64,000 bases of DNA. Origin: Pseudoscleropodium purum (Eukaryota; Streptophyta; Bryopsida; Hypnales; Brachytheciaceae). Shown here piece after piece: positions 1 through 57,939 of this stretch. The notes beneath the pieces were generated by a model that ran no database searches, was not told the DNA's origin, and worked only from the letters and a program-made list of their open reading frames with translations. The translations under genes and the position numbers were made by a program. Where the stretch lies: NCBI GenBank assembly GCA_963969395.1, contig OZ017797.1, forward strand, positions 30,070,001 to 30,134,000, given 5' to 3'. The first letter of the stretch is position 1. Each line of letters opens with the position of its first letter.

Positions 1-317
1 CACAAAGGGAGAATCAACGAGTATAAGAAGTATGAGAGAATGCTGAGCCTTCACTAATGACAAACAATCACTTATAAGCAACGGTAATCACTAACACTCT
101 CTAACTCACTCACAAAGCTTGACTTGACAAAGACGTCAAGTCAAGCACGTGTGCGCCACTATAAGCACACACACATAAAACCCTAACGGATTAAACTCAT
201 CCGTAGGATGAATGAGGTGTGCCGGCCGCACGTCCCACACACACATAGATTAGTAACAACTAACCTATGCTAAAACACTACGATGTGGAGAGGCCCCCGA
301 CGTCACATCCCATGACA
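1..317 (-). repeat. 3' LTR (partial, continues left of the window)
   Basis: This matches 9247-9562 with a few small indels. Homology stops at CATGACA at 317 and at the same motif at 9562. On the minus strand the element would begin TGTCATGGGATG, which fits the usual TG start of an LTR. It contains a perfect 12-bp hairpin (117-128 with 135-146). A G-rich minus-strand tract near 425-435 might be the real polypurine tract, in which case the LTR reaches further right than 317 and the right-hand copy is truncated. Confidence 0.75.
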
Positions 318-739
318 GTTGTCGTATAAAGAAAGATCGATAACCACAACAGATCGAGAGTCTCAACCAACATCAAACAAACGAAAAACATAGTCAAACA
401 CAACTATGCTAAGTATACCCTCGAATGCCCCCCCTAGCGGATAAAGAGCCCCTCTAATTCGCTAGGACCAAACAACACAATATAGACTATCGCCACGGTG
501 ATGTTGCTTCAACAACTATACGCATCCAGTTAAAAGATAATCCATTGCCGAATCAATAAGCGCATGGAGAAGTAACAAAGAGAGGGTAGGCCAGGTGCAA
601 TGTGAGCTCCATCTTTAATCGCCTTAGGCAACTTTGTTGCCAATCCCTTGGTCAATCTTCACGTTGCCTATGTCTGAAACAAAACCAAGAATTCTAACTA
701 GATGGCAACGCACCACACCAGTGAAAGTGCATGAGAAAG
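318..739 (-). other. Retrotransposon 3' untranslated region
   Basis: No coding sequence is visible between the integrase stop at 740 and the LTR. A short inverted repeat (CCTAGCG/CGCTAGG) surrounds 433-466 next to a run of seven C. I see nothing else here. Confidence 0.5.
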
Positions 740-1987
740 TCAAGCCAGTTCACTACGTGAAACATGGTTAGAAGACCTTCTACAACAAGGGCAAGTCCAA
801 TCCCCGAATGGTAGAGTAGAAAGAGGCAGCGTCAAGCAAGCTATATGCCATCCACGTTGGCAATGATTGCACAATAACATGGTAGCATTGCCCTTCTTCT
901 CACTACACACAAAACATGAAAGGCCCTCTGGCACAACAACCAATTCAGGATGAACGGAGCCATCAATGGGTAAATGGCAAGGAGCACAATTTTTAGAGTG
1001 CTCCCAACACTCCTGGCCATCCATGCCTTCCAACAATAAGATACCACTGGGCAACACATTCTTCACGCGAAGAATGGTCTGTCCAACCTTGACGTCCAAC
1101 GTCGTGGGTGCTTCACGCTGCAAATAAACGTAATCCCCCGTAGAAAAATGTTTCAAGTGAGGTCGGTAGGCGCCGCTACGAATGCGAGCGTACCATAGCG
1201 TGTCGCGATGCTGAGCAATGGATAAATTCTCCATGGCCATCGGCATGGCCCGCTTGAAGAACTCTGCTCGGTCACGCAAACACTGGATCCACACCTCTGG
1301 ATCATCCAAATCCACAACAGGAGCCAACTTCTCTTGTACAGAACAGGGTAGAATGGGCTCCCATCCGTATAACAACTGATACGGATTGAAAGCAGCCAGT
1401 GAAGCCTGTCGACTAAACTGATACGCCATGGCGATCCATGGTATCATCAGATTCCAATCATGGTGGCCACCTTGGAGTAATCTATACTTCCATAGGCCTT
1501 GTTTCACGGTCTGAACCACACGCTCCGCCAAACTGTCCGCTTCCGAATGATCCCGAGAAGTAGTACGATGGTCAATCAAAGCCTTGGTACACAAAGCTTC
1601 AAAAGCCCTAAGGAACTCTCGCCCTTGATCAGTCAAAACCTCAACTGGGGCTCCAAAATGAGCCAACACTCGGTCGAGGAATGCCATGGCCGCCAACTTT
1701 GAAGAGTTCTGTGGAAGAGCCACAAGCTCAATCCACTTGCTGAAATGCTTCACCATCACCAAGACATACTTGGCTCCACGTGGAGTCACGACAAGTGGAC
1801 CAACAAAGTCCAAGGACCAACGATAGCCCAATCCCATAATGGGCAAAGGTCGCAACTGCGGTGATAAAGTGTTGAAGCTGGATCGCACCCGATCACACAC
1901 CTTACACCGTGAAACATAAGTGGCAACCTGCTGATACATGCCGGTCCACCAATACTGGCTGCGCAACTTCAAATGAGTCCGTCGCAC
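740..1987 (-). pseudogene. Retrotransposon integrase with C-terminal PHD finger
   Basis: This open stretch of 415 codons continues the pol frame after a TAG stop at 2009-2011. An incomplete zinc-binding N-terminus (CKVC at residues 28-31) is followed by the integrase core. The catalytic residues are present as D60 (LDFVGP), D120 (LTDQGREF) and E155 (SLAERVVQTVK), with 34 residues between the second Asp and the Glu. A GDYVYLQRE segment near residue 285 fits the SH3-like C-terminal domain. Residues about 359-404 form a complete C4HC3 PHD finger: CFVC, CNHC, H-x2-C, then WTCPCC. PHD fingers read histone H3 tails, so this replaces the chromodomain seen on many plant gypsy integrases (function inferred). 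The part itself has no break, but it cannot be expressed as part of an intact polyprotein. Confidence 0.9.
785..918 (-). other. PHD finger domain of the integrase
   Basis: Eight metal ligands are in the right spacing: C-x2-C, C-x2-C, x4-H, x2-C, then C-x2-C after a conserved Trp two residues before the last pair. An acidic/small-residue loop separates ligands 2 and 3. The alternative of a RING finger is less likely because of the H-x2-C placement and the Trp. Confidence 0.85.
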
Positions 1988-2008
1988 ACCAAAAGGACCA
2001 AGGTCTTC

Positions 2009-3808
2009 CTATACTTGCCGTACCAATGAAGCCCTCTGATTTGGCTTGCGAACTATGCGCCTAGTCCCATCCGGCCACACCCAAAATAGAAAGCCGTTCT
2101 CCCAACAAAACCTTGTTATTCGGTGTCCAACTCGATCGCGCTCCATAGCCGAAAGAGCAGGTGGAAGCATCCCATGTTGTAGCTTGTGCAAGACTAGAAT
2201 GTCTTCCCACACATTGCTAACAACTTGGGTCTTGTCTGGTTCCTCATCTGTTGTCAAGTCAAACAACGTCGATGCGGAGCCAGACATCAAGGTGAGATAA
2301 GCTGCTGCATGCCACCCCGGAACCGACTCCCTATCACAATTCCCATGCCACCTAGCACTAGTCACATCCTCTTCCGAAGGACTTGGATTGCGAGAAAGAC
2401 CATCTGCATCCAAGTTGGTGATGCCGGCCCGATATACAACCTCAAAATCATACTCTTGAAGCAACAAAGCCCACCTGGCAAGCTTGCCAGTGAGCTTGTC
2501 AGACTCCATGAGCCACTTCAAAGGTTGGTAGTCGGTCACCAATGTAAAACGTTGCCCATACAAGTATGGCCTGAAATGAGCTATGGCCCAAACCACTGCC
2601 AAAGCCTCCCCCTCATAGGATGAATAGTTGGACTCCGCATTGTTGTTGCTCCTAGAAGCAAAAGCAACAACATACTCTCGTCCTTCCTCATCCTTCTGAG
2701 TCAATATTGCATCCAATCCCACCGCACTCCAGTCTGTGTGCAATTGAAAGGGCCGTGTTGCATCCGGACGCTGCAATACAGGAGCTGAACTGAGCTTCAG
2801 CTTCAAGGTAGCAAATGCATGCTCCTGCTCGCATCCCCAAGTCCATTGTTGATCCTTTCCTCTGAGAATAGTCAACGGTTTAGCAATCAAGCTAAAGTTC
2901 TTGACAAATCGGCGATAGTAATTTGCCAAGCCAAGAAAAGTTCGAAGCCGTGACACGTCGGTTGGGGCAGGAATCTTCTGCAATGCATCCACCTTGGCCT
3001 GCTGTACGCCAAGATCCCCTGGAATAATCATGTGTCCCAAATATGGCAACCGGTTGTGGAAGAACTTGCACTTGCCATGGTGCAAACGCAATCCCCATTG
3101 CCGTAATCTCTCAAATACCTCCTGAAGATGCCTCACATGCTCTTATGGGTTACTACTAAAAATGATAACATCATCGATGTAGCATCGAGCAAACAGTAAA
3201 CCGGTCAACACCCGGTCCATCACCCTCTGAAACTCAGCGAGTGCGTTCTTGAGGTCAAATGGGAGAAACTTCCAATGGTAGAGTTGATCTCTCCCATCCA
3301 GATCAACTCCTCAGAATACAGTCTTCACTCGGTTATCCACCATCAATGGTAACTGATGATAACCAGACCGCAAATCTAGAGTACTAAATACTCTAGTATG
3401 GCCCACCGCATCAAATAACTCCTCTGGCGTGGGCATGGGATACCGGTCTGACTTGGTCTTGCGGTTGACTGGTCTATAATCGCCACACATCCGTTTCTCC
3501 ATCCAGTTGCCAAAGATATCCTTCTTTGATGGCATAACTGTGGCACAAGTATATTCACCGTTAGAGAGCTCAATCAAGTTGGCGGCCAACAACTCCTAAC
3601 AATGAGTCTACACGCCAACTTTCTCTGAAAGACTGAGCTTGTACGGGCGTTGGAAGATCGGGTGGTCGTCCTTCAACTCAATGTGAATGGGTTTGTCTTT
3701 ATAGCCCTCCAAATCATGGAGACTAAAGGCAAAACAGCTATGATACGAATGTATGAACGCTTGCACCTTTTGTGCCTCGGCACTAGTAAGATGTGGCCCT
3801 AACTCCAA
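2009..3808 (-). pseudogene. Retrotransposon reverse transcriptase and RNase H
   Basis: One frame is interrupted by stops at 3608-3610 (TAG), 3596-3598 (TAG), 3311-3313 (TGA), 3143-3145 (TAA) and 2009-2011 (TAG); a TGA at 3812-3814 lies just upstream. The RT palm is visible from the KRMCGDYRPVN segment to the YIDD active-site box at 3170-3181, followed by LPYLGH. RNase H follows (about 2780-2370), with Asp in HTDWS, Glu in YEGEALAVVWA and Asp in TDYQPLKWL. The end leads into the integrase without a frameshift. Every stop can be explained by one transition from Gln (CAG/CAA) or Trp (TGG). RT copies RNA into DNA and RNase H removes the RNA strand; both would act in the element's cytoplasmic particle. 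Confidence 0.93.
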
Positions 3809-3883
3809 AGGTCAATCATCAAACTCCGTGGTCTCCTTCTCCACTGTAGAAGACTCACTGTGTACCAGCACGGCCGATGATTG

Positions 3884-5232
3884 CTACTTAGTAGCAGAGA
3901 GGGCATTCATACCCCCAACCTTCTCACTCACGGGATCCATATAAAATCCCATATCGTGATGATAAAACCGGGAAAAGATATCCCCAGCATTCTCTCTACC
4001 AAAATCCTCGGCCAAGGCTACAAAGACACGCTGAGCACGAAGCTCCTCATCTACGTGCCTCTCCAAACGAAAAAGCAACTCTGCTTCCTCGCTCTTTGTG
4101 AGATGTGGCACCGCTGCCCCTTGACCATCAGAGTCTTTCCCCAACACGTGTGGCTGGTCACGCGAACGGCCCTGAAAGGCAAAACAGAGGCCACAAACCC
4201 AAGCAAGAGTGTTGAGGTCAATAGCTTGACCCAACAAATAACGACGTTGGCCCTCAGAGAGATCTGGTGCCGCAGTGGTGCTTGTCAAAAAGCCCATGGC
4301 CCGCTCCCTCTCATTGGCAGAAGGCTCCTCGTAAGTTTGGGAAGTAAAGTCCCAAACCATATCCGGACCGCGTATCCTAAAGGCTAAAGACCCAGGGTAG
4401 CACATCAATGTGGGAAATGCCCCCCATGTGAAACCAACACAGTTCACCACAGCCAAAGGTGGCTCATCATCCTTGGTAACCTCTATGGAAACATGATGGT
4501 CATCCAAGATGTCATCCACGTCATGCCGCACGGGTCGCTGCACTTGTGCAAGTGCAGAGGTGAGCATTGCCGATGATGCCAAGTTGGTCCAAATCCAACG
4601 TGGCCAATGGATGTAAGAGCCCAATGCCGCGGCATCAACATACGTGGGGGGACCAAGAAGGTGATGGATGTATGCCCCATCCTCACACACCTTCGTCCGT
4701 GTATCCCCCAATGGAGGTACATTCTCAAAAAAGTACCCTGGTGGCATCGATTGGTGGGTAATCCACCACTGGATGAGCCTAAGCAAATCCACAAAGAGCC
4801 TCGACCATGGATCATCCAAGCTACGTCCACGGTCGGGGCTCTGGCAATCACCAAGTCCACATGACCCAATCGGCGAAGATCATCTTCACTAATCAAAGTC
4901 ACATCACGTGGCAATTTACCAAAACATCCTCGAATCACAGAAGGTGGTAACTACTCTGGATACAACACCAAAAGACATTGGATGTGATGGTGAGCGGCAC
5001 GATTGGCCGCAAAGCCACTATCCACATGAATGTACCATTGTACTTTGAGCCCGACTTCTAACACCGCCGCTAGCCCTGTACCAATGCCGGCGAAGAGCTC
5101 CACAAGGGTAATACCTTCATTTGGTGGACGCCACTGAATAGTGCAAGCCAACAACGGGGTAGAAGAATACTCTGAGTAATGCGAAGCATCCAAAGCATCC
5201 ACAATCTCCCGACTGCGGCGAGTGAGCTCCAA
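3884..5232 (-). pseudogene. Retrotransposon-encoded C5 DNA methyltransferase, DNMT3-like, inactivated
   Basis: This lies between protease and RT. The SAM-binding motif I reads LVELFAGIGTG at about 5074-5106, followed by a conserved YIHVD and, near 4860, GHVDLVIA leading into the catalytic loop. Motif VI (FFENVPPLG) is at about 4708-4736, then a YVDAAALGSYIHWPRWIWTNL-type segment resembling DNMT3 (Asp-Ala pair followed by R-x-W-x-N-L). The C-terminal motif around 4250-4310 has ERERAMGF and QRRYLLGQAID, matching motifs IX-X. The order fits DNMT3-type enzymes, not DNMT1 or CMT (no BAH or chromodomain seen). The copy is dead: TAG at 4951-4953, a frame change near 4830-4850 that destroys the Pro-Cys catalytic motif IV, and TAG at 3884-3886. 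The enzyme class transfers methyl from SAM to C5 of cytosine. Confidence 0.85.
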
Positions 5233-5298
5233 TTGAGTCCCCCAAGGTGGAACTAGATCCTTGCAATGATGTGGAGGGAGCTGTGGTGGTACGTGCTC

Positions 5299-5859
5299 CT
5301 ATGATTCGGCTACCCCTGACATAAAAGCATATGTCTCCTCTAGAAGCGTAGAACTACATGGCAAATCAGATGCCAAAGGGCTGCACCCAAACATAGCATC
5401 CGCCGTAGGAGTCACTATGTTAGATGCAAAGACAACGGGGATGAGCTCCTTGCTGCCATCACCGACAGACCACCCAGGCCTAATCCAAGCCTCCTCTGTC
5501 CAGTTATCCACCCCAAAGCTGAGTGCATAAAGTGTTTGCTAACCCACCAAAATGTCGTAGTTGGTGGCACTAGTCACAACGCACTGAAGAGAGACATGTG
5601 AAAACAATGGACCAGATCCCACGCCAAACATCAACTGTAATGGATGTCGGGTGTACCCCATGGCCTTCTCCGTTCCCCCAACCGATGTGACAATTGTGAA
5701 TGGGCAAGGCTCGAGGTCTAAAGCACCTAGACCCAAATCTTGGGCTAGCTGTTTGCCAATCATCACTGGCTGAGCCCCGGAATCCAACATAACACGTAGG
5801 GGGGGTAGCTCGAGTGGGGTTGCCATCCGTACGGCCAACCACCATGACTCCGTCGTCAT
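5299..5859 (-). pseudogene. Retrotransposon aspartic protease and linker
   Basis: The active-site motif MLDSGAQ lies at about 5770-5790, followed by hydrophobic strands (ATNYDILVG) as in retropepsins. It is in a different frame from gag; the change occurs near 5830, where the gag frame runs on for about 80 codons of meaningless sequence. TAG stops interrupt it at 5539-5541 and 5299-5301, both explained by CAG to TAG. The linker between protease and methyltransferase (about 5530-5240) has no domain I recognise. Confidence 0.8.
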
Positions 5860-7906
5860 TCACCAAACGTATCACCCCTGGACACATACTACATCGCTCC
5901 CGTGCCGACCGGGCTGCAACATCAAACAAATAAGCCACTCCAGAGATCAAGGACTGATCCTTGGATGACTGCTCCATAGGTGTGGAAGTGGCATTGGCCT
6001 CAAACACAGAAATAGCCTCCGCCGCCAACTTGGCCCGCATTCCCACCAAATCCTCCTCAATGGATGGAGCCATCATTGCCTGTGACACCTCCAACGACGG
6101 AATGGGCACCTTGCCTTCCAACATACTACCCGCCAAGTGGAATACACCGGATGGTTGAAGATCCGGTGTGAGAAAGTCCATGCTAGCAAACACCGGCAAC
6201 TGCAACACCTTATACGCCAAGGTGTATGCAGTATCTCCACGACTAGAAGAAACCGGTGGGACCAGATTCGATGTGGGAGTGGCGGTAGAAGAAGCCGCAT
6301 CTGCGATGCTGAACGAAAGAGGTAGCCGGGACTGACCAATGTGGTCCGGCAAACCCACATGGCGTGAACGATTACTACTACCCGGCACAATGGAAGAGGG
6401 TGCCACTGCCTGTGCAATGGTCTGAGCACGAGTGGCAACCGCTGCCACCATCTCCCCTGAAGCACTATACAAGTAGTGATCTAGGGCTAAAGATGAGCCC
6501 TGACCCCTCATCGCAGGCTGTGTGTCTGCCACTTGCCCCAAAGAAGCCATCGCGCTCATCAACTTCTTTAGCTCCGCCAATTCAGCTTGAAGTGATTTCA
6601 CAGCCTCTGATCCGCCACCTGAAGATGTTGGACGCTTCTCAGGATGAAGAATGAAGCAATTCTCATCATTGTGGCCGAGCTTGCCACAATGAGAGCATGT
6701 CACAAGCTTCTTCCCCTTGCCCCTAGTCTTCTCCACAAGTTTGGCCGCCTCGGTCTTGGTCTTCCCCGCCCTTGCCCCCTTCTTCTTGGGACAATTGGGA
6801 TCCCCTTTGGTGTGACCGGCCTCTCCACAAGCCCAGCAGTACATAACCTTTTCAGGTTGTGCCTCTGCCAAACTACCTGTAGCTGTAGCAAGCTTCTTGG
6901 GCTTGGGAGCCTCTAAAAGCGATGTGACCAAGTCTGTGGCCTCGCTCACGCCCAATGCCTGGTCAAGCGCTTCGACCTCGGCGAACGCCTGAGCCAAGGT
7001 CGCGTTGCCGCCGTATTGGAAGAGGCGGTGCGGGCTGATCAACTCAACCATCCACTTGTCTAGCTTGGAGATAAAAATCTTCACAAGCTGACGTTCCGTG
7101 AACACATCACCAGCCTCCGTTGCCAACCGTGACAATCGAGTATACATAATGCGTGGGGTATCCTCCTTTTCACGGCGGAAATCCTGGATGCGGCGCATCT
7201 GATCACGCCGAAAACCCCCATACTCCATCTCCAAATGCGCCATAAATTGCGCTAGAGGATTAAAGCGAGGCGGAGGACTGATTGCCTTTAGTGCCGCCCG
7301 TATGGCTTGAGCCAAACGTGACATGGCCCCCAAGCCGGATCCTTCACCCACCAGAGCAATGCCCTTCCGCCTAGGATCTCCACTAGAGGAACCCTCCTCA
7401 TCCTTAGGCGGATCGTCAAAAGAAGGAGCTCGGGCAACCGCAACCTCTTTGAGTGCAGTCACCAACTCCACACGATCGCGCTAATAGTCCTCAACTGGGT
7501 GCAATTCCTCTACGTGCGATGCAATCCACCTCCCGTATGTTTGAAGCGCCTCTAGCTCCAAATGCTGTAGCAACAATTCAAACGCGTACCAGTCGTTGAA
7601 CGACGGTGTCCGCTGGCGCTTCTCCTTCATCCATGTCTGGAATCGGAGTTGCCAATCGGGCAAGGAGATACCCCCAGCCTGTCCCGAGAACTTGTCTTGC
7701 ACAACATGACGAAAATCATCCTCCATGTCACCAAATGTGCCCACACTCCAAACTTGAAGCCTACGATTGGTATCCAATGCCGAAACAGGCTCAAAAGCCT
7801 CGTCGGTATCTGACCCTGGCCCAAAGTTTGCGGCAGAAACACTTTCTAGGTGGTCTAGTGAGGGGGAGCGGTAATACTGACTCCTGGTACTCACCATAAA
7901 CAACAA
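5840..7906 (-). pseudogene. Retrotransposon gag with two CCHC zinc knuckles
   Basis: The start is at 7906 and an in-frame TAG lies at 7481-7483, after which the frame stays open. A helical gag core with RFNPLAQFMAHLEMEYGGF and DKWMVELISPH spans about 7270-6950. Two knuckles follow: CWACGEAGH...NC at about 6790-6842 and CSHCGKLGHNDENC at about 6655-6700. The second has the exact C-x2-C-x4-H-x4-C spacing; the first has two extra residues before the last Cys. A Ser/Pro/Ala-rich tail leads to the protease. Gag forms the particle and the knuckles bind the RNA genome. Confidence 0.88.
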
Positions 7907-9246
7907 CCACCAAGGAAACTATCTACGGGTACTATCTTAAAGGTAAGGGTACGGACGGGCAACCTGCACTTGCAAAATCACCAAGCTATGTGAATCACCG
8001 GTCATCACCTCCGGCTACCACAGGTCCAACCACAACCCCCCACATAAAAAGGTCTTGCCGGCCATTAACCCGACTTCACCCCTACAGTATCCTATCACAA
8101 TCTGAGACAACAAGAAATGGGGCCACTGGAAAACACCGGCAACAAGCCCGCAACACGGGGGAGGTACCGCACAAGAATCCAGAAATCAAAACTGGATCCT
8201 CTCCCCCAACAACATAAAAGCAGAATTGACAAAAGAATTAGAGCCACTGGCACGTGTCTGCAGTGGATAATCCCAAGTCACAATATCTACAAAGCAAGAG
8301 AAACATCAAAGATGTTCCCCAAATGTCTAAAACTAAGGAGGAGATGGAATCCTACGGTCGCGGTGTTCACAAATACTAATCCCCCATTACTTAACAAAAC
8401 AATGGGTGATAACACGATAAAATGTCAATCCAACACTAGAATTGGATAAATGATGAGATATTCAAACTATGGGCACAAATTTCACTCACAAGCGAGTAAA
8501 ATTGCCCTCACAAACTACCTCCAAAGTTTGACACTAAATTTTTTTAATTTTTATTTTTTTTAATTTTTAAAAGGCACATAAAAATGTGATTTTTCAAAGT
8601 TTTGAAAACTAAATTTTTTTTCCCCATTAGGCTTCCAATCCCCCCACGAACTCAAATCTGCAAACAGAATTTGAAAATAACAAAAATTGCAAAAGTTAGA
8701 TTTTCCAAGTTTTTGGTCCAAGGATGATCTGAAATTTTCCAAAACTTGACAGAATTAGGTACTACGGCACGGTTTAGGGTACCTGACGCATTTAAAACCC
8801 TATCGGAATTGGACTTCCTCCAGTGTGAACACGGCTAAAATGAAACCGGTTCAGAAAATAACTTGAACCACTTACAGTGTGAACGCGCTATCGGATGGAT
8901 GAAATCTGCCCAATGGATGAAAACTATACGCAGTGGATGAAACTGTCCCAGTGAATGAAAAATCGCAAAACTGCTGAAACTGCTGAAACTGCTGAAACTG
9001 CTGAAACTCCAGAACTTCTTGCTCCACAACTTCCAATCTTCACAACTTCTCCAAAAATCGTCCGATTTGGGCGCCGTCGGTGGCGTTGGCTCCGTCTCCA
9101 CGCGCTCTATAACAAAATCTAAACTACCCACAATTTTTTTTAAATCACTCAATGTCAAATTTGAGAACTATTGCAAGAAACGTGGGAGGGTCTTTGTCAA
9201 GTGAGTATGTTGCAAATCAAAAGAGTAGTCAAGCGGCTCGCAGTCC
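7907..9246 (-). other. Retrotransposon leader and unresolved inner part of the 5' LTR
   Basis: There is no coding sequence here. The stretch holds the primer binding site and probably the inner part of the LTR, but only 317 bp of the other LTR is in view so the boundary cannot be set. At 8969-9006 the 9-bp unit CTGCTGAAA is repeated about four times. The 8530-8760 part is A/T-rich. Confidence 0.5.
8969..9006. repeat. Short tandem repeat, 9-bp unit CTGCTGAAA
   Basis: About four near-perfect copies lie in a row inside the retrotransposon leader. Translated on the minus strand they give Ser-Ser-Phe repeats, but there is no reason to think they are translated. Confidence 0.85.
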
Positions 9247-9562
9247 ACAAAGGGAGAATCAACGAGTGTAAGAAGTATGAGAGAATGCTGAGCCTTCACT
9301 AATGACAAACAATCACTTACAAGCAATGGTAATCATTAACACTCTCTAACTCACTCACAAAGCTTGACTTGACAAAGACGTCAAGTCAAGCACGTGTGCG
9401 CCACTATATGCACACACATAAAACCCTAACGGATTAAACTCATCCATAGGATGAATGAGGTGTGCCGGCCGCACGTCCCACACACACACATAAATTAGCA
9501 ACAACTAACCTACGCTAAAACACTACGATGTAGAGAGGCCCCCGACGCCACATCCCATGACA
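9247..9562 (-). repeat. 5' LTR, outer part
   Basis: This direct repeat of 1-317 includes the same 12-bp hairpin arms at 9362-9373 and 9380-9391. The differences between copies are almost all transitions. The flank beyond 9562 begins with an A run; the matching target duplication, if any, lies outside the window. Confidence 0.8.
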
Positions 9563-14440: not shown

Positions 14441-16711
14441 CTATGGAGTTTGGGAAAGGGAGTCGTAACCAGGAGGGGCTCGCCTGTTCCTTGTAGCGTG
14501 ACGAGACGCTCGCCTCCAGAGCCTGACCCAGAAATCCACATCTCGAATATACAGGAGCGTGGCAAGAGCAAGCCCACATCCAAATCCAAGCGCCGAACTC
14601 GAATTCGTTAATGAAATTACCGTGACCGTTAGCATCACAAACGCATCAGAGCGGGACGTTTGGTCCCTGCAAGCCATTGCTAGTTCAAGGCCCGAAAAGA
14701 AGAGCAGTACACCAAGTAGTCCAATCGGATACAGGGCTAAGAGTTTCACAAGAGATGAGCCAAGAACAAGAGCCAGAAGCATCTTCACGGTTCCGAGAAA
14801 TACCACTGCAGTTCCAGTTTTTGCACCAAACCTGTACTGGCCAGCCAAACCTCCCGCACCGTGACAAACGGGCATGGCGCCCCACCAACAGCCCACCAAG
14901 TTCATCAGACCCACGCTCACCTTCAGGAACCAAACACACAGCCATAAGATTCCTAACCAAGCTGAGGGTAACTGTAGTAAAGTGAAATAGCTGAGACATG
15001 GATAGCATATTGATGGCACCATTCTTGCAATCTATTACCCGTCAGTTGTAATTTATGGTGTACACATCCCGCGCCAGAAAAAAGAGTTTCACAACCGCTA
15101 ACCAATACGCCATTCTATGCTTGTTAACAAAGCACTTGTAGCTGGTGATTGCAATTAATCAAATGAGAAATTTTTGTATAAGCAAAATTTAGAACAGCTT
15201 GAATTGCAGATAGTCCAACGCATGCAAACAAAGATCAACACGAACAAAACCTAGGAAGGGCTCAGTACCGAGACTTTGAAAGGTGAAACATCCTTGCTTG
15301 GAAACAAGTCGTTGGAGAGCTTGCACACGGCAATGACAGAGTTCAGAATGGAAAGTGGAATCTGAGGAATGGCTGCCCTCATAAACCCAATCTGCCAATC
15401 CGACTTCGTGATGGTGAGAAATCGAGGTATCGATGGTCCAAATCGAAGGTTCCAAATGGCATTCGGGTCTCGAGCGATAGCCAAGATGACGCCAAGGCTG
15501 AACACCAGTAAAGCAGTTGGTATACCGACTGATCTGCCCTCCCTACTCCTCCTCTCCCTTCTTGCTGTAGACTCTTCTTCCATTTCTTCCAGAAGCCCTA
15601 CGCTCTCAGTCCCACATTCGTGACCTCCCCCACTGCCTCCAGCACCTGAAGCAATTACTATAAAGCATAATGCAGAAAGGGCCAACAGCAGCCCGTCAAG
15701 CCCCAGCCAAGGCCGGTCACCCGTGGCTTTACTCTTTGTCAAATCCTGCTCCTTCAAAATGTATTTCACAGCTGTTATGCCAAATGCTATGCCCTGTGAT
15801 AGCTGCACACCTCGAACCACGGGGAGAGGCACAAACCGGTTCACCACAGACATAAGCCCCGTGATCCCAAGAATAGCAAGGATAAGGGCTGTGGACAACC
15901 CTGCCGCCATTATTTGGCTCACTGTAAGAGGATCCCCTTCTGTGATTGCAACTGCAGCGATCGACTTCATCGGTTGCACTGGCATGGGCACGCCGAAGAG
16001 AAGACCTAATCACATACATTTCAGTGGCACCATTAGTCTCTGCACTACGATTGAGGCAGAGGATGCTAACCTAATCCCGACTCCTATCGACTAACCCTGA
16101 TACCAACAGCAACTCACTTCTTACCATACACTTGCTTGGCCTCCAATTAGCAAGTTGAGTGCAAGCATGACTTGGCTAAATGTCTACTGATCGTCGAATG
16201 GAAATGCAGCTGTCTACTGTCCCTTCAATAGTGATCTACCACCTCCCACATTGAAATTCAAACATAGTGATAAAATTTCATCTCAACGGAGTTTGTCTCT
16301 TCTAGTACCCAAAGTCCACTCTCCAGTGATCGCTAGAGAGAAATCCCAATGAAAGCACACTAGAATATATGTTGAAATGCTTAAAGAGACACAAATATCC
16401 TCTACCTCATGATCGAAACTTTTCCAAATTGCAACCACCCGGTCCTGATCAGCATGATAACAGACCTAAAAATTTGCTGACGAACACACAAAACAGATGT
16501 AATGAAGTTTGCATGCACCTGTGATGACGTTGTACGCGCCCGTGAAGAGCAAAGTCGTGCCAAGGTCGATCCCATTGACGAGAACTAACGCCAGCACAAT
16601 GGGCAAGAACGTGCCCAGGTCACCCACGGAGCCGCTCAATTCTTCCCATATGTTTCTATACCCTAAATTTCGCTTCAGGCGTCCCCACTGACTGACTTCA
16701 GTCTCCGCCAT
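14441..16711 (-). CDS. MOT1: Molybdate transporter MOT1 (three exons, 469 aa)
   Basis: This is a plant molybdate:anion transporter of the MOT1 (formerly SULTR5) family, a multi-pass membrane protein importing molybdate for molybdenum-cofactor enzymes. Exons on the minus strand are 16711-16519, 16005-15269 and 14920-14441. Introns start GT and end AG and the joins keep frame (1410 nt, 470 codons with the TAG stop). Diagnostic motifs are SGSVGDLGTFLPI with GAYNVITG in exon 1, FGVPMPVQPMKSIAAVAI and the RGVQLSQG segment in exon 2, and, across the exon 2/3 join, VSVGLMNLVGCWWGAMPVCHGAGGLAGQYRFG in pieces. A Ser/Glu/Arg-rich cytosolic loop lies mid-protein. The length matches the family. I cannot tell whether it targets the plasma membrane, vacuole or mitochondria. 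Confidence 0.95.
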
Positions 16712-20163: not shown

Positions 20164-21797
20164 TGCTGCCAAATTGCGAGGAGGGCTGCGGAGGGGCAGA
20201 GCGGAAGCGCAGCAACGACGATGACGACAGCAACGAAACAAGTTTCCGAGGCAAACGATGGCCTCGCTTGAAACGCTCAAGAGCTCAAAGAGCCCTGCTG
20301 GAGCTCATTTTAACGAATGAAATATTTCGTGGATGTATCGTTCCTCGTTCATCCATTAGTAACTGGTGGTCCGTTTAGGATTCTCCTTGTTTAGGGTCCA
20401 CTATCTGTCGAAGACCACTACAGGAAAAATTTTAAGTCTCACCGCTTCGCTTCTCGCCACACCCTGCCTGCCGTTTGCCCCTTCGACCCGCGTTAGAGAG
20501 TAGTAACCGGGCTGCACTACTCTTGATGCCGTTGTCATTCCTCTATAGAATCTATTGTTTTACTTTCTTCATCGAAAACCATTAGAATTCCTGCTCATTT
20601 TCTAAAATCTAGAAGACTTGAGACTTAGGGTTTGGAGTTTTGTAGCCATCGAGCATGCCGGATTGAAAGAGGTGCGGCTAATAACACAAGTGGATTCGCG
20701 TTCGAGAGCTTCGTAATTTGCTCTGGTAAATTTCATTCTCCATTCACAATCTCCTCTGGATACAACATGTGATTTGTGATTCTCAATACTTTTGGTTTGA
20801 GAAAATGAGATCCTGACCTAATTTTTAAAAATTATGGTCACTTGCAAACAGTGGTAGCTGTAGCAAGCGAGGTAGTCGGACAAGCAGAGAAGTACTCTGA
20901 AGGTGCTCAACCAGCGATTTCAAGCACTCTAGAGATGATTGTGTCCTCAGATCGAAGGATTGAATCGTAAGGGGATTCAAGGGTAAGTTCTCCATAGCCA
21001 TCGCCGCAGCAGAATGTGTGACTTGGCCACGAACACTTCATTTGAGACGTTTAGCGCCAATTTAGGATTTTCCGTGGCTTGTAGATGAGGGCAGATGCTG
21101 ACACATTCAGTAACAAAAAGACTCAGATTGAAACTACAAATTGTTCCCGGAGGATATGTTAGGGTATTGTTGTCTCGGTGAGAGATGGAGCCGACGAGCA
21201 GAATCTGCTGAGCACTGTGCAAAGTAACTACAATGATATATCTGAGTCGAAGACTGTAAGCTTACTGAGATCAAGATTTATGAGTTAAATCAGGACTTGC
21301 TAAAAGACACCTAATACTATAATCAATGTTTGGTGCCACTCTTGATTTTAGGGTTAGGTAGAGCCTCCTAACATGGCACCTATAGTAAGCAGCTGCTCTG
21401 CAATAGGGATGCATATTCTGGGTTCAAGATACTCTTCGCAATTTATAGATTTTCTCTGAGAGCGTTTGGGAAGTATTTCCTATCTTTTGTGCTTGCTTGT
21501 TTATCACGAGGATTTGTTCAACAAATTTGGTCATCATTGAAATAAATCATGATAGGGTGTTTGAGTGGCTTTACACAAGGACGTGAGCAAACTACGAACT
21601 GGTATTGAGGTTTAACCCTGAACCTATTTTTCACAAATGTGCTTGTTGCTGTCTGCATGCAGGCCGTTTGGATTATTTTAAGCTTTCCTATGGGCTGGTT
21701 TGCTTCGTGTGGACCTCTCTCAAGTTTTTTGGACCTGGTGCTCGAACTTTGATCTTGGTCGTTTTGTCGCTTCATCAGATTCTTGACGGTTTCCACG
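20164..21797. promoter_or_regulatory. Shared upstream region of ATP synthase e and IMP3, duplicated elsewhere
   Basis: This 1.6-kb divergent intergenic region is likely to serve both genes. On the plus strand a GT at about 20727 and an AG at 21779-21780 could bound a 5' UTR intron of IMP3 (inference). About 20440-20860 recurs directly at 57940-58860. About 20760-21290 recurs inverted at 60943-61530. Open stretches such as the minus-strand one at 20977-21222 are conserved only partly between copies and I do not call them genes. Confidence 0.6.
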
Positions 21798-22346
21798 ATG
21801 AGGAAGCTCAAGTATCATGAGCAAAAGTTGCTGAAGAAGGTGAATTTCTTGGAATGGAAGAAGGAGCGCGGGGAGCATGAGCTCCGTGTGATGCGGCGCT
21901 ACCACATCACGGGGCGCGAGGACTACCAGGACTACAACAAGATTTGTGGCATGGTGACCAAGTTGGTGACCATGCTGAAGAAGATGCACCCGCAGGACCC
22001 GACCCGCATGGAGATGACGGAGGCGCTTCTGGAGAAGCTGTATAGCATGGGTGTGATTCCGTCCAAGAAGAGTTTGACCCTCTGCAACAAGCTGTCGGTG
22101 TCGACTCTGTGCCGTCGTCGCCTCGCAGTCGTCATGCTCCGGCTGAACATGGCGGAGAACATGCGGGAAGCCGTGACGTTCGTGGAGCAAGGCCATATTC
22201 GCGTCGGCCCCGACACCATCACTGAGCCTGCGTTTTTGGTCACTCGGAACATGGAGGATTTCGTGACTTGGGTGGATTCGTCGAAAATCAAGCGGAAGGT
22301 GTTGCAGTATAACGACCGCCTGGACGATTACGATCTCCTCAACTGA
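21798..22346 (+). CDS. IMP3: U3 small nucleolar ribonucleoprotein IMP3 (182 aa)
   Basis: This is a complete single-exon coding sequence. It starts MRKLKYHEQKLLKKVNFLEW, the family's typical N-terminus, followed by VMRRYHITGREDYQDYNKICG. An S4 RNA-binding domain spans about residues 108-154 (RRLAVVMLRLNMAE, EQGHIRVGPDTITEPAFLVT). It ends DYDLLN, close to the length of yeast and human IMP3. With IMP4 and MPP10 it holds U3 snoRNA on the pre-18S rRNA in the nucleolus. The start is fixed by the conserved MRKLKYHE. Its codons are clearly GC-richer than the surrounding DNA. Confidence 0.97.
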   Translation: MRKLKYHEQKLLKKVNFLEWKKERGEHELRVMRRYHITGREDYQDYNKICGMVTKLVTMLKKMHPQDPTRMEMTEALLEKLYSMGVIPSKKSLTLCNKLSVSTLCRRRLAVVMLRLNMAENMREAVTFVEQGHIRVGPDTITEPAFLVTRNMEDFVTWVDSSKIKRKVLQYNDRLDDYDLLN

Positions 22347-39310: not shown

Positions 39311-41665
39311 CTACTCCTCACCATCGAAATCTTCGGCAGCTTCAAAAAAACCAGCATCTTCAAGCTCATCTTCGGTAGCATCAAGTAAATCAGTCTCCTT
39401 CCTGTAGAACTCCTGTACGTCCTTTGCAACAACCTCACACTCATGACGCGCATCATCAGGCCAATTTTTGAAGATCATGATCAAAGAGTCTAAGTTGTCC
39501 AGGCCAAGGCGGCACCGACGCAGGCCTGTAAGCACGCCAGCAATACTGAAGATGCGCTCAGTTTCAGTTTGCGATCCCGGAATTGCCAGAATCTGGCGGG
39601 CCAAGAAGGCCACAGATGGAAAACGGCTTCCATTCTCCTTCCACCATGTCAAGGGTTTCTCTGCCTCTTCAGGAACCACAGTCAAGCGTTGGAAAAGGGA
39701 CAGTTCAGCAGTAAGGATGCCCTCGCAAGCTTCCTCAGTCGATGCTGCATCACCGAACAGTACGTTGGATGACCTCGGAGCAGGAGCAGGGGCTGGAATT
39801 CCGCCAGGGTTCAGGAATTTGTGTACCTTGATCAAAAAAGGAATCAGCACCGCCGTGTCATAGCTCTGCACAATCTCCTTTGCCTTCGCGACGCCGATGT
39901 ACTCAGTGATGCACTCCAAGCCCTTGAAGCGTGGGTCTAACATCAAAGCCAACATGTTGTGAGCCTTGGACTCGTTGAACACATCAGCAAAGGCAAGAAA
40001 AGGCTTCAGAACTCCAATAGCCTCGCGAGCCATCCTCATCTTGAGCATCTCAATCTCGGACTCGAAGTCACCAACTCGGAGAGCAGGAACAACCAACGCT
40101 CGCTGATCATGGACATCTTGTAACTCCACCAAGACACGAAACGCCGCAGCAAGGGCATCAGAGAGGAGCCAGTATCCACGAGTCTGGTTTAGAATGCACT
40201 GCTTCACAATGGCATTCAGAGTCCCGGTAACAGTCCTCGCTACTGCCCACGTGAGGCCACTCGGAACACGTTCCTGCAATTTCAGGGACTGCCGCCTGTA
40301 GCAGATGTTGATGGCGTCCGCATACTCCAACGTCTCCTGGAATAACACCACCTTCGAAGCAAAACGAGTCTTCACAGGGGTTTTGAGTTTCCGACTAGGC
40401 AGTCCAGCCTCAATGCACGCCTTGTTCCATTCACTGCGACCTACGCCAGACTTCTTGGTCCATGTGATACACGACTGCAGCGATTTCTGAGCAGTCTTCA
40501 AGGAGCCCTTCTTCATACCCACACACACCTTGTCCTCGGTGGTTGCGTATTGGCAGACCTTCGACATGATGTGTCTGAAACAAGCTCCACTGTAGGATTT
40601 GGTAAGGTCGAGAACTGCACAAGACACTGTTGTCTGCAGAGCACGCTGGAGTGTGGCCAAATTGGCACCTTCATCTTTCACACAAGCGATTACCTTATCC
40701 TGCAACTGAAACTGATCGAGTAGAGGCTTCACGATCTCAGCCAACGCAGCACCAGATGTATCTTGCGCTTCGAAGAGGCCCACTGTAACGTGCCGAGGCA
40801 CCCAACCCTCGTCGATGAAATTAACAACCACAGCAAAGGTATCCCAACCGCACCTTGACATCCACAAATCGAAAGTGATGGTAGCTGTCGCACAACTCGC
40901 AATTGCAGGCAACACATACCTCTCCATTGTCTTCGCAAACATTGCGGGAATGTGCTCATTCACGAGCTGCCTCCGACTTGGGCACACCACCCGTGGATCC
41001 AGGCGCATGACAAAACGGCGGAACCATGAACTCTCAACGGTGCTCAAAGCTTCGTAACCCTTGGCAATAAACAGGACCACATCTTCAATGAACCGCAACT
41101 GCTGCACATCGTTCTTGTTGTAGGGTTTGTTGTTACCGAAAAATGACGTGATATCAGACGGTGGCACCACCTTCCTTCTCTTCGACTTCTGCCTGGAACT
41201 CTCTACCTCTGCTGTCTGCCGCTTATACCTCTCCAAGTCGCTCGGATGCTCATTCGTCAAATGTTTCTTCATACTTGTGATTCCATGGTTAGGGTTATAC
41301 TGCACGTAGCCCTTTCGTGAACGAGTGCTGCTGCGGGAGTTGCTGGACTCTGCCTGTCCAGGGTGACACACTGTGCACTTCATCGTCTGGGTCGCCTTCA
41401 CGTCGACGCCATTCTCCGAGTCTCTTAGGCGAAAGAATGCCCACACCGCGGAGTTGCGATGATAAGGGACCCAAAACCTTGCATTCGCCATGAGCCCACC
41501 GTAGCGTACTTCCCACGCCGCCTCATCTTCGGCAGCAACAGTCTCCTCAATCGGTCGCAGAATGTCCCCGTGCCTCTCTTCTGCAGCTTCCTCGCACTCA
41601 ACGTCAACAGAATCTTCCTGCAACAAACCTGTGTCCTCATGACTAGGCTGGTAATCGGACGACAT
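39311..41665 (-). CDS. hAT transposase (784 aa)
   Basis: This is one uninterrupted frame from ATG to TAG. The N-terminus is acidic. Residues about 60-140 form a BED zinc finger: aromatic WAFF, C97-x2-C100, H135-x4-H140. Catalytic Asp candidates are D266 (TITFDLWMS) and D331 (VIACVKDEGANLATL), followed by a CFRHIMSKVC segment matching the C-x2-H region. The C-terminal dimerisation domain (about 670-735) has WWKENGSRFPSVAFLARQIL, the GSQTETERIFSIAG signature and LIMIFKNWP. It binds the element's ends and catalyses cut-and-paste transposition. Length is normal for the family. No stops or frameshifts, so the protein may be functional. Confidence 0.95.
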   Translation of the reverse strand: MSSDYQPSHEDTGLLQEDSVDVECEEAAEERHGDILRPIEETVAAEDEAAWEVRYGGLMANARFWVPYHRNSAVWAFFRLRDSENGVDVKATQTMKCTVCHPGQAESSNSRSSTRSRKGYVQYNPNHGITSMKKHLTNEHPSDLERYKRQTAEVESSRQKSKRRKVVPPSDITSFFGNNKPYNKNDVQQLRFIEDVVLFIAKGYEALSTVESSWFRRFVMRLDPRVVCPSRRQLVNEHIPAMFAKTMERYVLPAIASCATATITFDLWMSRCGWDTFAVVVNFIDEGWVPRHVTVGLFEAQDTSGAALAEIVKPLLDQFQLQDKVIACVKDEGANLATLQRALQTTVSCAVLDLTKSYSGACFRHIMSKVCQYATTEDKVCVGMKKGSLKTAQKSLQSCITWTKKSGVGRSEWNKACIEAGLPSRKLKTPVKTRFASKVVLFQETLEYADAINICYRRQSLKLQERVPSGLTWAVARTVTGTLNAIVKQCILNQTRGYWLLSDALAAAFRVLVELQDVHDQRALVVPALRVGDFESEIEMLKMRMAREAIGVLKPFLAFADVFNESKAHNMLALMLDPRFKGLECITEYIGVAKAKEIVQSYDTAVLIPFLIKVHKFLNPGGIPAPAPAPRSSNVLFGDAASTEEACEGILTAELSLFQRLTVVPEEAEKPLTWWKENGSRFPSVAFLARQILAIPGSQTETERIFSIAGVLTGLRRCRLGLDNLDSLIMIFKNWPDDARHECEVVAKDVQEFYRKETDLLDATEDELEDAGFFEAAEDFDGEE

Positions 41666-42207
41666 ACTGATGCTTCAGAACTGAAACCCTAGACTACAGC
41701 AAACTCTCAAACAAACATGCAGGCAAGTAGGGCGAGCGCATGGTATTTGAAATTGTCACACAGATAATCAGAAGCTGCAATGAGAAACACCAAAACAATT
41801 ATCGCTAACAAAATTGCAATTGATCATCGTACCTGAGCCTAAACCGTCAATAACACCACGCATTCAAAGCACAGCAAGGGCAGCCCCCACTCCGCCCCTC
41901 ACAATAACACTCACGATCTCAGCCAATGCCGCTCACAATTACACTCACTCTAGCAAACCCTACCTTGTACATCGTACCCTCACAAACTGAAATCCAAATC
42001 TCAATACCAATGAAGCCCGCACGAAAGCACCGCAGTCGGGTACACAATGCAGTATCTCGGAGACGCAGTGAGGGGCAACATGCATAAACCCTGCTTTCAC
42101 GCCCATGCACGTAAGCCTGTATCGGTTCCGTGAGACCCTGTTGATATTTACTATTGATACCCGGCTAAACCCCCTATACCCGACCAACACTGGTTATGAC
42201 AACCATG

Positions 42208-42215
42208 GTAGAATC
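42208..42215. repeat. Right 8-bp target site duplication of the hAT element
   Basis: GTAGAATC, identical to 38358-38365, after which the lectin reading frame resumes. Confidence 0.95.
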
Positions 42216-42744
42216 TGGGGACTCCAAATACGATCCTTCTGCTTCCTCGTACACTCTAAACTCTGCAGCATACAATCTCGGATGCATTCCAGAAATATTA
42301 GATACCGAAACATGCGGAAGGATTCTGTATGCAGACGCAGTGCGGATGATGGACACTGCGTCCTCTCGAGTAGCCTCGTTCAACACTGCCTTCACTTTCA
42401 CGTTTCTTCAAGACAATGCCACGTTTTGTGGCTCTGGAATCGCCTTCACATTCACAGCCAGTAATTTCTTCGATGACGATGAAGGATGGGGCATGCGCGC
42501 TTTCGAGTACTCTCTCAGTGAGAACGATTCCGAGCCCGTGTTTGCAGTGAAGTTCCACAGCTACCTCAGTGTTGTCGATGACACTGTCCCCGATCCTAGC
42601 AACAGCAACATCGGAGTTGTCAGCACCGACAAACAAGGCTAGACGAGTGTAACGCAACACAATCTTTGTGATAACAATGTAACTCACTGCAACATTTTCT
42701 GCAATCCAAATGATCCGGTTTCATTTTCACCATGGATTGATTAC

Positions 42745-56827: not shown

Positions 56828-57327
56828 ATGCTGTTTGCAATAACGTCCTGGAACGCGACATGGACTCGATCTGTGCCTATGGTGGTCCTGGCGGTGCTTC
56901 TTTTGTGTCTATGCCATTGTCGACGGTCGAAACACCTCTTTCTCCTTCCCCTCACTAGGGGACCTGGATTTGTTACAAACTGAAGGTGGAATTGTAGAAT
57001 CTGGGGACTCCGAATACGATCCTTCTGCTTCCTCGTACACTCTAAACTCTGCAGCGTACAATCTCGGATGCAATCCAGAAATATTAGATACCGAAACATG
57101 CGGAAGGATTCTGTATGCAGACGCAGTGCGGATGATGGATACTGCGTCCTCTCGAGTAGCCTCGTTCAACACTGCCTTCACTTTCACGTTTCTTCAAGAC
57201 AATGCCACGTTTTGTGGCTCTGGAATCGCCTTCACATTCACAGCCAGTAATTTCTTCGATGTCGGTGAAGGATGGGGCATGCGCGCTTTCGAGTACTCTC
57301 TCAGTGAGAACGATTCCGAGTCCGTGC
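56828..57327 (+). pseudogene. Truncated L-type lectin receptor kinase copy (unit B)
   Basis: This is homologous to the unit A lectin gene from its start codon to the segment before the FAVKFHSY strand. A one-base insertion near 56910 shifts the frame in the signal-peptide region, and homology ends at about 57327, so most of the lectin domain, the membrane helix and the kinase are missing. The lectin part from 56970 reads SGDSEYDPSASSYTLNSAAY and onward, almost identical to unit A. Its value is that it preserves the empty hAT target site (56994-57001). Confidence 0.9.
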
Positions 57328-57939
57328 TAGCTGCAAGTCCACCATTATCTTGCACAGTTCCACCATGATCTTCTTATTCGAATATGAATGTGAGATTTTT
57401 TCAGGTTTCGACAACATGCACGTAAATTTTCTCATTGCTTGATTTCTGTATGTGCCACGGGGAAAACTTCGCAGCAAACAAGGAAGCATTAACAACGAAG
57501 GCAAACAACAGAGGCAGACGTACAGCCTTCAAAATCACCATTTTCGTACAGAGTTTTCGATCACTTAGCAATGAAAGACAGTATGGCAGACAAAAGTTAG
57601 CCCTGTTGATACACTGAATTTTTCAACTTTGTTGCACGTTGTACTTCACCGAAGAGAATAAAAATTTATGCACAAATTCACCATTTTCGTGCAAATTCAT
57701 GGGGCGGTTTCTACTACTGCACCTCTATTTCGCAAAAGTAGCCTCTGACAGACTCACTTAATTATAGCGTCGTCGCAGTTTACGGTATACAGTAGTTACG
57801 TATGCTGGGATCGCTGCTCAAGAGACTCAAGACAGTCCGGAATCCGGAATAACCTTTTTTTTTATTGTTGGTGGCGGGAACGTTCCAAGGGAACGGAGGC
57901 ACAGGGTTTAGAGAGTGTCAGAGGGGCAATGAGGGGATC
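57328..57939. other. Junction DNA right of unit B
   Basis: No gene seen. It lies between the broken lectin copy and the copy of the IMP3 upstream region. Confidence 0.4.

Follow-up and report, generated by a model that had tools for sequence, protein, structure and literature searches.

A moss retrotransposon copy from a bryophyte group whose DNA methyltransferase is apparently made together with the particle protein

We analyzed a 64,000-nucleotide stretch of the genome of the moss Pseudoscleropodium purum (contig OZ017797.1, positions 30,070,001 to 30,134,000; referred to here as the window). Positions 1-9562 are occupied by a retrotransposon on the minus strand, the strand of all element features below, with its domains in the order gag, protease, methyltransferase (MTase), reverse transcriptase (RT), RNase H, DDE integrase, and PHD finger. 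The 5' end is a repeat (A1; 9203..9562) that starts with TGTC and is 94.8% identical to a second repeat (A2) over 362 columns. The gag region (6070..7906, borders approximate) is carried by two open reading frames (ORFs; 7906-7481 and 7471-5570) and is 82% and 84% identical to the gag pieces of a related metagenomic contig (L001), and it contains two zinc-knuckle-like motifs recognized by eye (~6843-6656; Pfam match below the cut-off). The aspartic protease (5485..5875; PF13650, E 2.9e-5), with LDSGAQP at 5787-5767 and a frame change inside the domain, is followed by a C5-cytosine MTase domain (3887..5133, upper border approximate) that lies in two frames and has lost motif IV. The gag-protease-MTase frame ends at UAG CAAUCA (3878..3886), a stop codon in a type I readthrough context, and the RT lies behind it in the same frame.

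The RT (2882..3748; 91% identity to L001) has CYIDDV at 3184-3167 and in-frame stops, and PF00078 matched its C-terminal end below the cut-off. The RNase H (2363..2752; PF17917, E 2.3e-37) precedes a DDE integrase of the rve type (1313..2002; PF00665, E 4.4e-15; PF17921) in which the D, D, and E motifs are all present. The C-terminal part of the integrase frame is a PHD finger (770..925; PF00628, E 4.5e-7), whose best matches in the PDB (best 60 of 88) are PHD fingers of chromatin proteins (e.g., KMT2D, CHD4, DPF3, and KDM5). In the Pfam scan, the 415-aa integrase ORF had this PHD finger and no chromodomain, and eight window pieces yielded the rve integrase and no recombinase family. A polypurine tract, CTAGGGGGGG (428..437, by eye), stands immediately before repeat B1 (320..424). 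Repeat A2 (1..317) continues to -42 past the start of the window and is followed at -44 to -148 by B2, to which B1 is 94.3% identical over 105 bp.

A sequence-only reading of this DNA had described MTase motifs between protease and RT, and every motif that it quoted is present on the minus strand in the interval from 5875-5485 to 3748-2882 (VELFAGIGTG [motif I], FFENVPPLG, ANERERAMGF, and QRRYLLGQAID). The copy is nevertheless dead, because a 22-nt gap (4815..4850, site approximate) deletes the catalytic motif IV, which is GWPCQGHS in relatives, and causes a frameshift, and because the MTase and RT contain in-frame stops. The gap was read by eye against L001, where the stretch comprises 48 nt coding GWPCQGHSRAGSGRGL, compared with 26 nt in the window; besides the split into two frames, the MTase domain contains one more in-frame stop. 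Regarding PF00145, which had been proposed as a check, the window's own broken MTase pieces did not match at E 0.1, singly or joined with X, and the joined pieces gave a weak DNMT3 match in the PDB (E 0.013); all 10 relatives scanned matched the family, eight with scores over the curated cut-off. With X inserted at the breaks, the read-through window MTase had 21 protein matches, with E values down to 6e-246 and identities up to 79%, and its resemblance to these proteins is thus not due to chance.

Relatives of the read-through MTase were obtained by sequence search (21), alignment search (129, of which 120 were listed), and long-protein search (21), and a set of 136 proteins was used for pattern counts. 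They include proteins from the liverwort Marchantia polymorpha (P0025, P0034, P0039, and P0043), from Closterium (P0019 to P0021), from an entry labeled Mesvir1 (P0134; presumably Mesostigma viride), and from metagenomes; among the relatives listed with an organism name, none came from Klebsormidium nitens. A knuckle-like pattern and motif IV occurred together in 11 of the 136 proteins, 10 of which were 1159-1437 aa long. The MTase domain has moved within the group, since it lies between RNase H and integrase in P0133 (1771 aa; MTase at ~596-963) and ahead of the integrase in P0130 (1181 aa; ~203-566), both of which also have a PHD finger, compared with the protease-RT position elsewhere.

The host genome (313,191,705 bases; 52 contigs), whose LEAFY gene has the residues characteristic of mosses and so marks a land-plant host, was queried with relative P0003. 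At least 105 MTase matches were found on 11 contigs (90 places when merged within 10 kb), a lower bound because 101 of 184 candidates were scored. Twenty-two matches span all 413 residues, identities range from 91% (short pieces) to 38%, and the matches split into separate subfamilies. In-frame stops were present in the MTase of 26 of the 30 loci with the best-scoring matches, and the four without stops include the frame-shifted window copy. In 29 host loci of ~4 kb each (L010 to L039, leaving out L037, which is the window copy itself), the RT was downstream of the MTase in every case and the protease was upstream in 26, not being found in L021, L029, and L036. The full order from gag to PHD finger was present in five of eight hand-picked 10-kb stretches (L043, L045, L046, L048, and L050); one or more element parts were absent from the stretches of L044, L047, and L049. 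Counted over the 46 stretches that bear the junction stop described below, the whole order in one stretch was seen in seven (the same five, the window, and L001 in a circularly permuted form).

These counts bear on the possibility that an ordinary LTR retrotransposon lies beside a host MTase gene or a chimeric pseudogene. Such a chance neighborhood is suggested only by the single-window view; many copies, spread over 11 contigs, have the MTase between protease and RT, relatives such as P0126 and P0128 have protease and MTase in single proteins (Pfam), and the B1-A2-B2 repeats have target duplications outside them, which makes this explanation hardly conceivable. A host gene or a chance insertion as the source of the MTase was ruled out by the genome copies. 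The earlier claims that the MTase is part of the element and that several copies share the gag-protease-MTase-RT order are thus borne out, and we conclude that the window contains a decayed copy of a bryophyte retrotransposon group with several subfamilies and streptophyte-algal relatives.

Two relatives carry bacterial labels. The L001 contig, binned as a Synechococcales metagenome-assembled genome (MAG), has identical 127-bp ends (1-127 and 9159-9285), reflecting either a collapsed assembly repeat or a circular form. An origin of L001 as cyanobacterial DNA was rejected, since its element and that of the window are 85% identical; the bin seems to be contaminated with eukaryotic DNA. P0005, an element MTase, bears the database label DNA cytosine methyltransferase and is assigned to a Candidatus Obscuribacterales MAG, which probably reflects the same type of contamination. 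Among viral contigs, five stretches matched a search pattern, none of which encodes a relative.

The MTase had also been placed inside the pol polyprotein, a position that required revision: the MTase frame of the window copy ends at a TAG (3886-3884), so the arrangement is not simply that of an MTase within one pol frame, and a UAG in readthrough context parts it from the RT. The junction was compared in 47 stretches, as against ~90 places in all: the window, L001, the 29 loci, and 16 hand-picked stretches, namely the eight of 10 kb and eight short ones spanning the junction (L052 to L059). A stop codon followed by CARYYA was present in 46 of the 47 (44 UAG; UAA in L046 and L054) and was not found in L033. 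The six nucleotides behind the stop were CAAUCA (30 stretches), CAACCA (8), CAAUUA (7), or CAACUA (1), contexts that within one subfamily are common by descent. As a control, 38 decay stops were examined in the MTase frames of 21 copies, and CARYYA stood behind only one of them. In 44 of the 46 stretches, the junction stop and the RT share one frame. The stop was out of the MTase frame through decay in L031, L032, and L049 (the MTase frame could not be followed in the short stretches L052 to L059), and 1 or 2 extra stops occurred between junction and RT in 10 stretches. L001 has both frames open: the first is split over the contig ends, and the second continues in register behind the UAG.

UAG-CARYYA is the type I leaky stop of tobamoviruses (PMC2754532, PMC3542737). 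The moss element group has the same stop codon, the same six positions after it, and an in-frame ORF behind, here in a retrotransposon and between MTase and RT. Re-initiation, splicing, or a subgenomic RNA could also bypass the stop in place of readthrough. The UAA codons of L046 and L054 and the stops out of the RT frame in L028 and L047 would fit such a bypass; against it stand the shared frame in the other 44 stretches, the maintenance of CARYYA, as four variants, across subfamilies, the low control count, and the published statement that CARYYA can stimulate readthrough at UAA as well (PMC3542737). We therefore consider these bypasses very unlikely and favor readthrough. Because the UAG with CARYYA separates it from the RT, the MTase would in this group be the C-terminal part of a terminating gag-protease-MTase product, and it is apparently made together with the particle protein.

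Selection was assessed by comparing L001 with 21 host copies, dropping for each domain the copies with less than 70% ungapped identity. The median dN/dS was 0.099 for the MTase (n = 21; range, 0.07-0.39), 0.074 for the protease (n = 19; 0.05-0.21), and 0.092 for the RT (n = 15; 0.05-0.25), in pairs that are not independent because L001 is common to all. The dN/dS of the MTase is as low as that of the RT. The comparison with the divergent L043 yielded 0.185 for the protease; for MTase and RT, dS had reached saturation. A single change separates 18 of the 38 decay stops from the L001 codon, and 16 of these 18 changes are C-to-T or G-to-A. Methylated DNA would be expected to show such changes, but they do not constitute a test of methylation.

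We then considered what kind of MTase the element encodes. A structure model of relative P0001 (mean pLDDT, 63) had 174 PDB matches and 11 viral ones with E ≤0.001. The 50 PDB matches listed were without exception DNMT3A, DNMT3B, or DNMT3C (best E, 5.3e-15), and the best viral match was a Caudovirales phage MTase model with a nearly equal value (1.2e-14). A sequence profile likewise placed DNMT3A/B/C first in the PDB (E 1.4e-21), followed by 4onj (from 4.7e-11), which we take to be a DRM-type enzyme, and HaeIII (4.8e-9). The element enzymes share with DNMT3 the predicted fold and the segment ENV...DA...H R.R..W.N; they differ from DNMT3A and DNMT3B in motif IV, which is PCQ in the element relatives and PCN in those enzymes. 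Motif IV was WPCQ in 32 of 39 sequences, altered in three (L030, L047, and L048), and not found in four (L034, L036, L039, and the window). An inactive MTase resembling DNMT3L, with motif IV missing throughout the family, was ruled out because the Cys is retained in most of the relatives examined.

In a tree of 28 rows, the retrotransposon MTases formed one clade of 18 (98/99) that includes the Closterium and Mesvir1 sequences. A clade next to charophyte elements had been named as a sign of support; the algal sequences lie within the clade, in a comparison whose sequences did not include Klebsormidium. Human DNMT3A, the sole DNMT3 in the tree, grouped with phage enzymes on a long branch. In tests of groups named after the tree had been seen, a clade of the family with this one human DNMT3A (p-AU 0.414) and a clade of the family with P0135 (p-AU 0.52) were not rejected, and a clade of the family with phages but without DNMT3A, P0135, and a Burkholderiales row was weakly rejected (p-AU 0.036).

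On these data, descent of the MTase from a C5-MTase of phage, bacterial, or viral type instead of a eukaryotic DNMT3 is possible but somewhat unlikely. The PCQ of motif IV, the match to PHROG 116 (E 2.5e-22), the phage records found by tblastn (best E 2e-12 among the 20 of 296 matches listed), and the Caudovirales model argue for such a descent, but it is opposed by the rank of DNMT3A/B/C over HaeIII in the profile search, by the DNMT3 identity of all PDB fold matches listed, and by the post hoc p-AU of 0.036. Thus, of the earlier label "DNMT3-like", the part that refers to the fold stands, and the part that would imply ancestry is qualified by a nearly equal phage model, by the PCQ, and by a clade with DNMT3A that is neither shown nor rejected (p-AU 0.41): the predicted fold is near that of DNMT3, and the tree does not settle descent.

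A different concern is whether the enzyme acts on DNA. SymbioLINE-Dnmt is reported to have methylated no DNA in yeast, with a role on RNA suggested instead (PMC5890265), and the moss MTase might similarly act on RNA or be a non-catalytic component, either of the particle or for DNA binding. We regard this as quite unlikely, given that PCQ and the ENV of motif VI are kept across divergent subfamilies (with the exception of Closterium P0019 to P0021, which have ECQ and EHL) and that, among solved structures, the predicted fold is nearest to DNA MTases.

The repeats depart from those of the plain LTR element that had been proposed for this locus. The window copy has the plan A-coding-B-A-B (A1, B1, A2, and B2), and plain LTRs at both ends were ruled out, with A1 at one end and B1-A2-B2 at the other. 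Among the six 3' regions first examined (window included), B1-A2-B2 was also present in L044, L046, and L050 and was not found in L043 and L045. In six further 3' ends, B2 followed A2 in L010, L014, L019, and L023; L024 had an A repeat followed by internal sequence and no B2, and no repeat was found in L018. A1 was read, besides the window, in L050 (as L060) and L046 (as L061). In both subfamilies seen, the polypurine tract directly precedes B1 and ACTTGA follows A1. The sequence behind A1 in the window (~9200), ACTTGACAAAG, lacks the TGG start of the usual tRNA primer site and matched no tRNA.

The elements end in TGTC...GACA, except for TATC in L014 and AACA in L023. Exact 4-bp target duplications were read by eye in five of the six copies with both ends read, i.e., GTTT (L050), ACCA (L046), ACAT (L023), AGGC (L014), and TAAC (L019), and the window flanks (TTTT/TTCT) retain three of four letters of such a duplication; L010, L018, L024, and L044 offered one usable end each. 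The border between A2 and B2 corresponds to the polypurine-tract border plus the end of A1, from which we infer that a joined BA-coding-BA molecule may have been opened at its inner B|A site. DIRS-like repeats combined with integrase-type target duplications would imply an unusual integration route.

Retrotransposon-encoded DNMTs are described in PMC5890265 (de Mendoza et al. 2018) from dinoflagellates and Klebsormidium, with purifying selection and with de novo CG methylation by retrotransposon DNMTs; a 2025 survey gives the same retrotransposon DNMTs for streptophytes and dinoflagellates (PMC12344493). The closest published counterpart is KnitGypsy-Dnmt3 of Klebsormidium nitens, which combines DIRS-like repeats with Gypsy domains (PMC5890265). 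Both elements have an intronless, Dnmt3-like MTase in the coding region beside Gypsy-type RT, RNase H, and rve integrase, and they have in common DIRS-type repeats, purifying selection on the MTase, and the presence of several copies. A-coding-B-A-B with Gypsy domains is complete in the window, L050, and L046, and B1-A2-B2 alone was seen in L044. The two differ in that the MTase of KnitGypsy-Dnmt3 is in the Pol ORF (PMC5890265), whereas here it closes the gag-protease frame before UAG-CARYYA; MTase and RT in one Pol frame, absent from the window family because of the intervening stop, are present in P0019, P0020, and P0049. We do not claim membership in KnitGypsy-Dnmt3, because the Pol ORF feature is absent and the two were compared by published description only. 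The term "PHD" is absent from the main text of PMC5890265, whereas the moss element has a PHD finger, and the accessible part of that paper makes no mention of readthrough or target duplication for KnitGypsy-Dnmt3.

The dinoflagellate element SymbioDIRS-Dnmt3 shares the retrotransposon MTase and the A-coding-B-A-B plan but has a tyrosine recombinase (PMC5890265), in contrast to the DDE integrase and 4-bp target duplications found here. Compared with the DIRS order in general, the moss element has an rve integrase and no tyrosine recombinase. With canonical Ty3/gypsy LTR elements it shares the DDE integrase and a short target duplication but not the same LTR at both ends, and it differs from chromoviruses in having a PHD finger and no chromodomain behind the integrase. 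We found no publication that describes retrotransposons with an MTase from mosses or liverworts, which is weak evidence of absence given that most subscription literature was outside the search. Four features are, as far as this search shows, new: the presence in a moss and a liverwort, the location of the MTase on the Gag side of a conserved leaky stop, the PHD finger, and target duplications that lie outside split repeats.

Taken together, the findings suggest the following life cycle. Most ribosomes would stop at the UAG, so that the MTase would be synthesized within the Gag polyprotein and be present in many copies per particle, and RT and integrase would be made by readthrough in the CARYYA context. 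By analogy with the published algal and dinoflagellate case, the MTase packaged with Gag likely methylates the cDNA of the element itself, in the particle or in the nucleus; this methylation would probably disguise or protect the cDNA, either ahead of integration or during it. Through the PHD finger, the integrase may be directed to a histone state. Reverse transcription between the primer site behind A1 and the polypurine tract would give BA-coding-BA. Judged on repeat anatomy alone, the ends of this product may join into a circle, which the integrase could open at the internal GACA-NN-TGTC, yielding A-coding-B-A-B. We assign a probability of about 0.7 to this overall explanation, i.e., a bryophyte group with a Gag-packed MTase, UAG readthrough, cDNA methylation, PHD targeting, and the circle route. 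A more far-reaching version would treat the group as a separate kind of retrotransposon: LTR-like (with B+A as the LTR), circularized, and opened by the DDE integrase at the GACA-NN-TGTC palindrome, with an MTase made at Gag level through a leaky UAG and methylating the cDNA, PHD-guided, and kept as a lineage from streptophyte algae to mosses and liverworts. We put it forward tentatively, as unlikely in its entirety.

The results suggest that the algal strategy of MTase-carrying retrotransposons also exists in land plants. If true, a phenomenon described from algae and dinoflagellates would extend to land plants, to a moss and to Marchantia, a laboratory model, and the question of why a transposon should methylate DNA would thus become testable. 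From the conserved leaky stop, one would expect the MTase in the same stoichiometry as Gag.

Other open frames were recognized by eye elsewhere in the window. A 784-aa frame resembles a hAT-type transposase (39311-41665, minus strand), two ORFs resemble a molybdate or sulfate transporter (14441-15991, minus strand), and one frame resembles an IMP3-like protein (21783-22346, plus strand). Two very similar lectin-like open frames on the plus strand (42196-42642 and 56970-57368), ~14.8 kb apart, probably represent a duplication.
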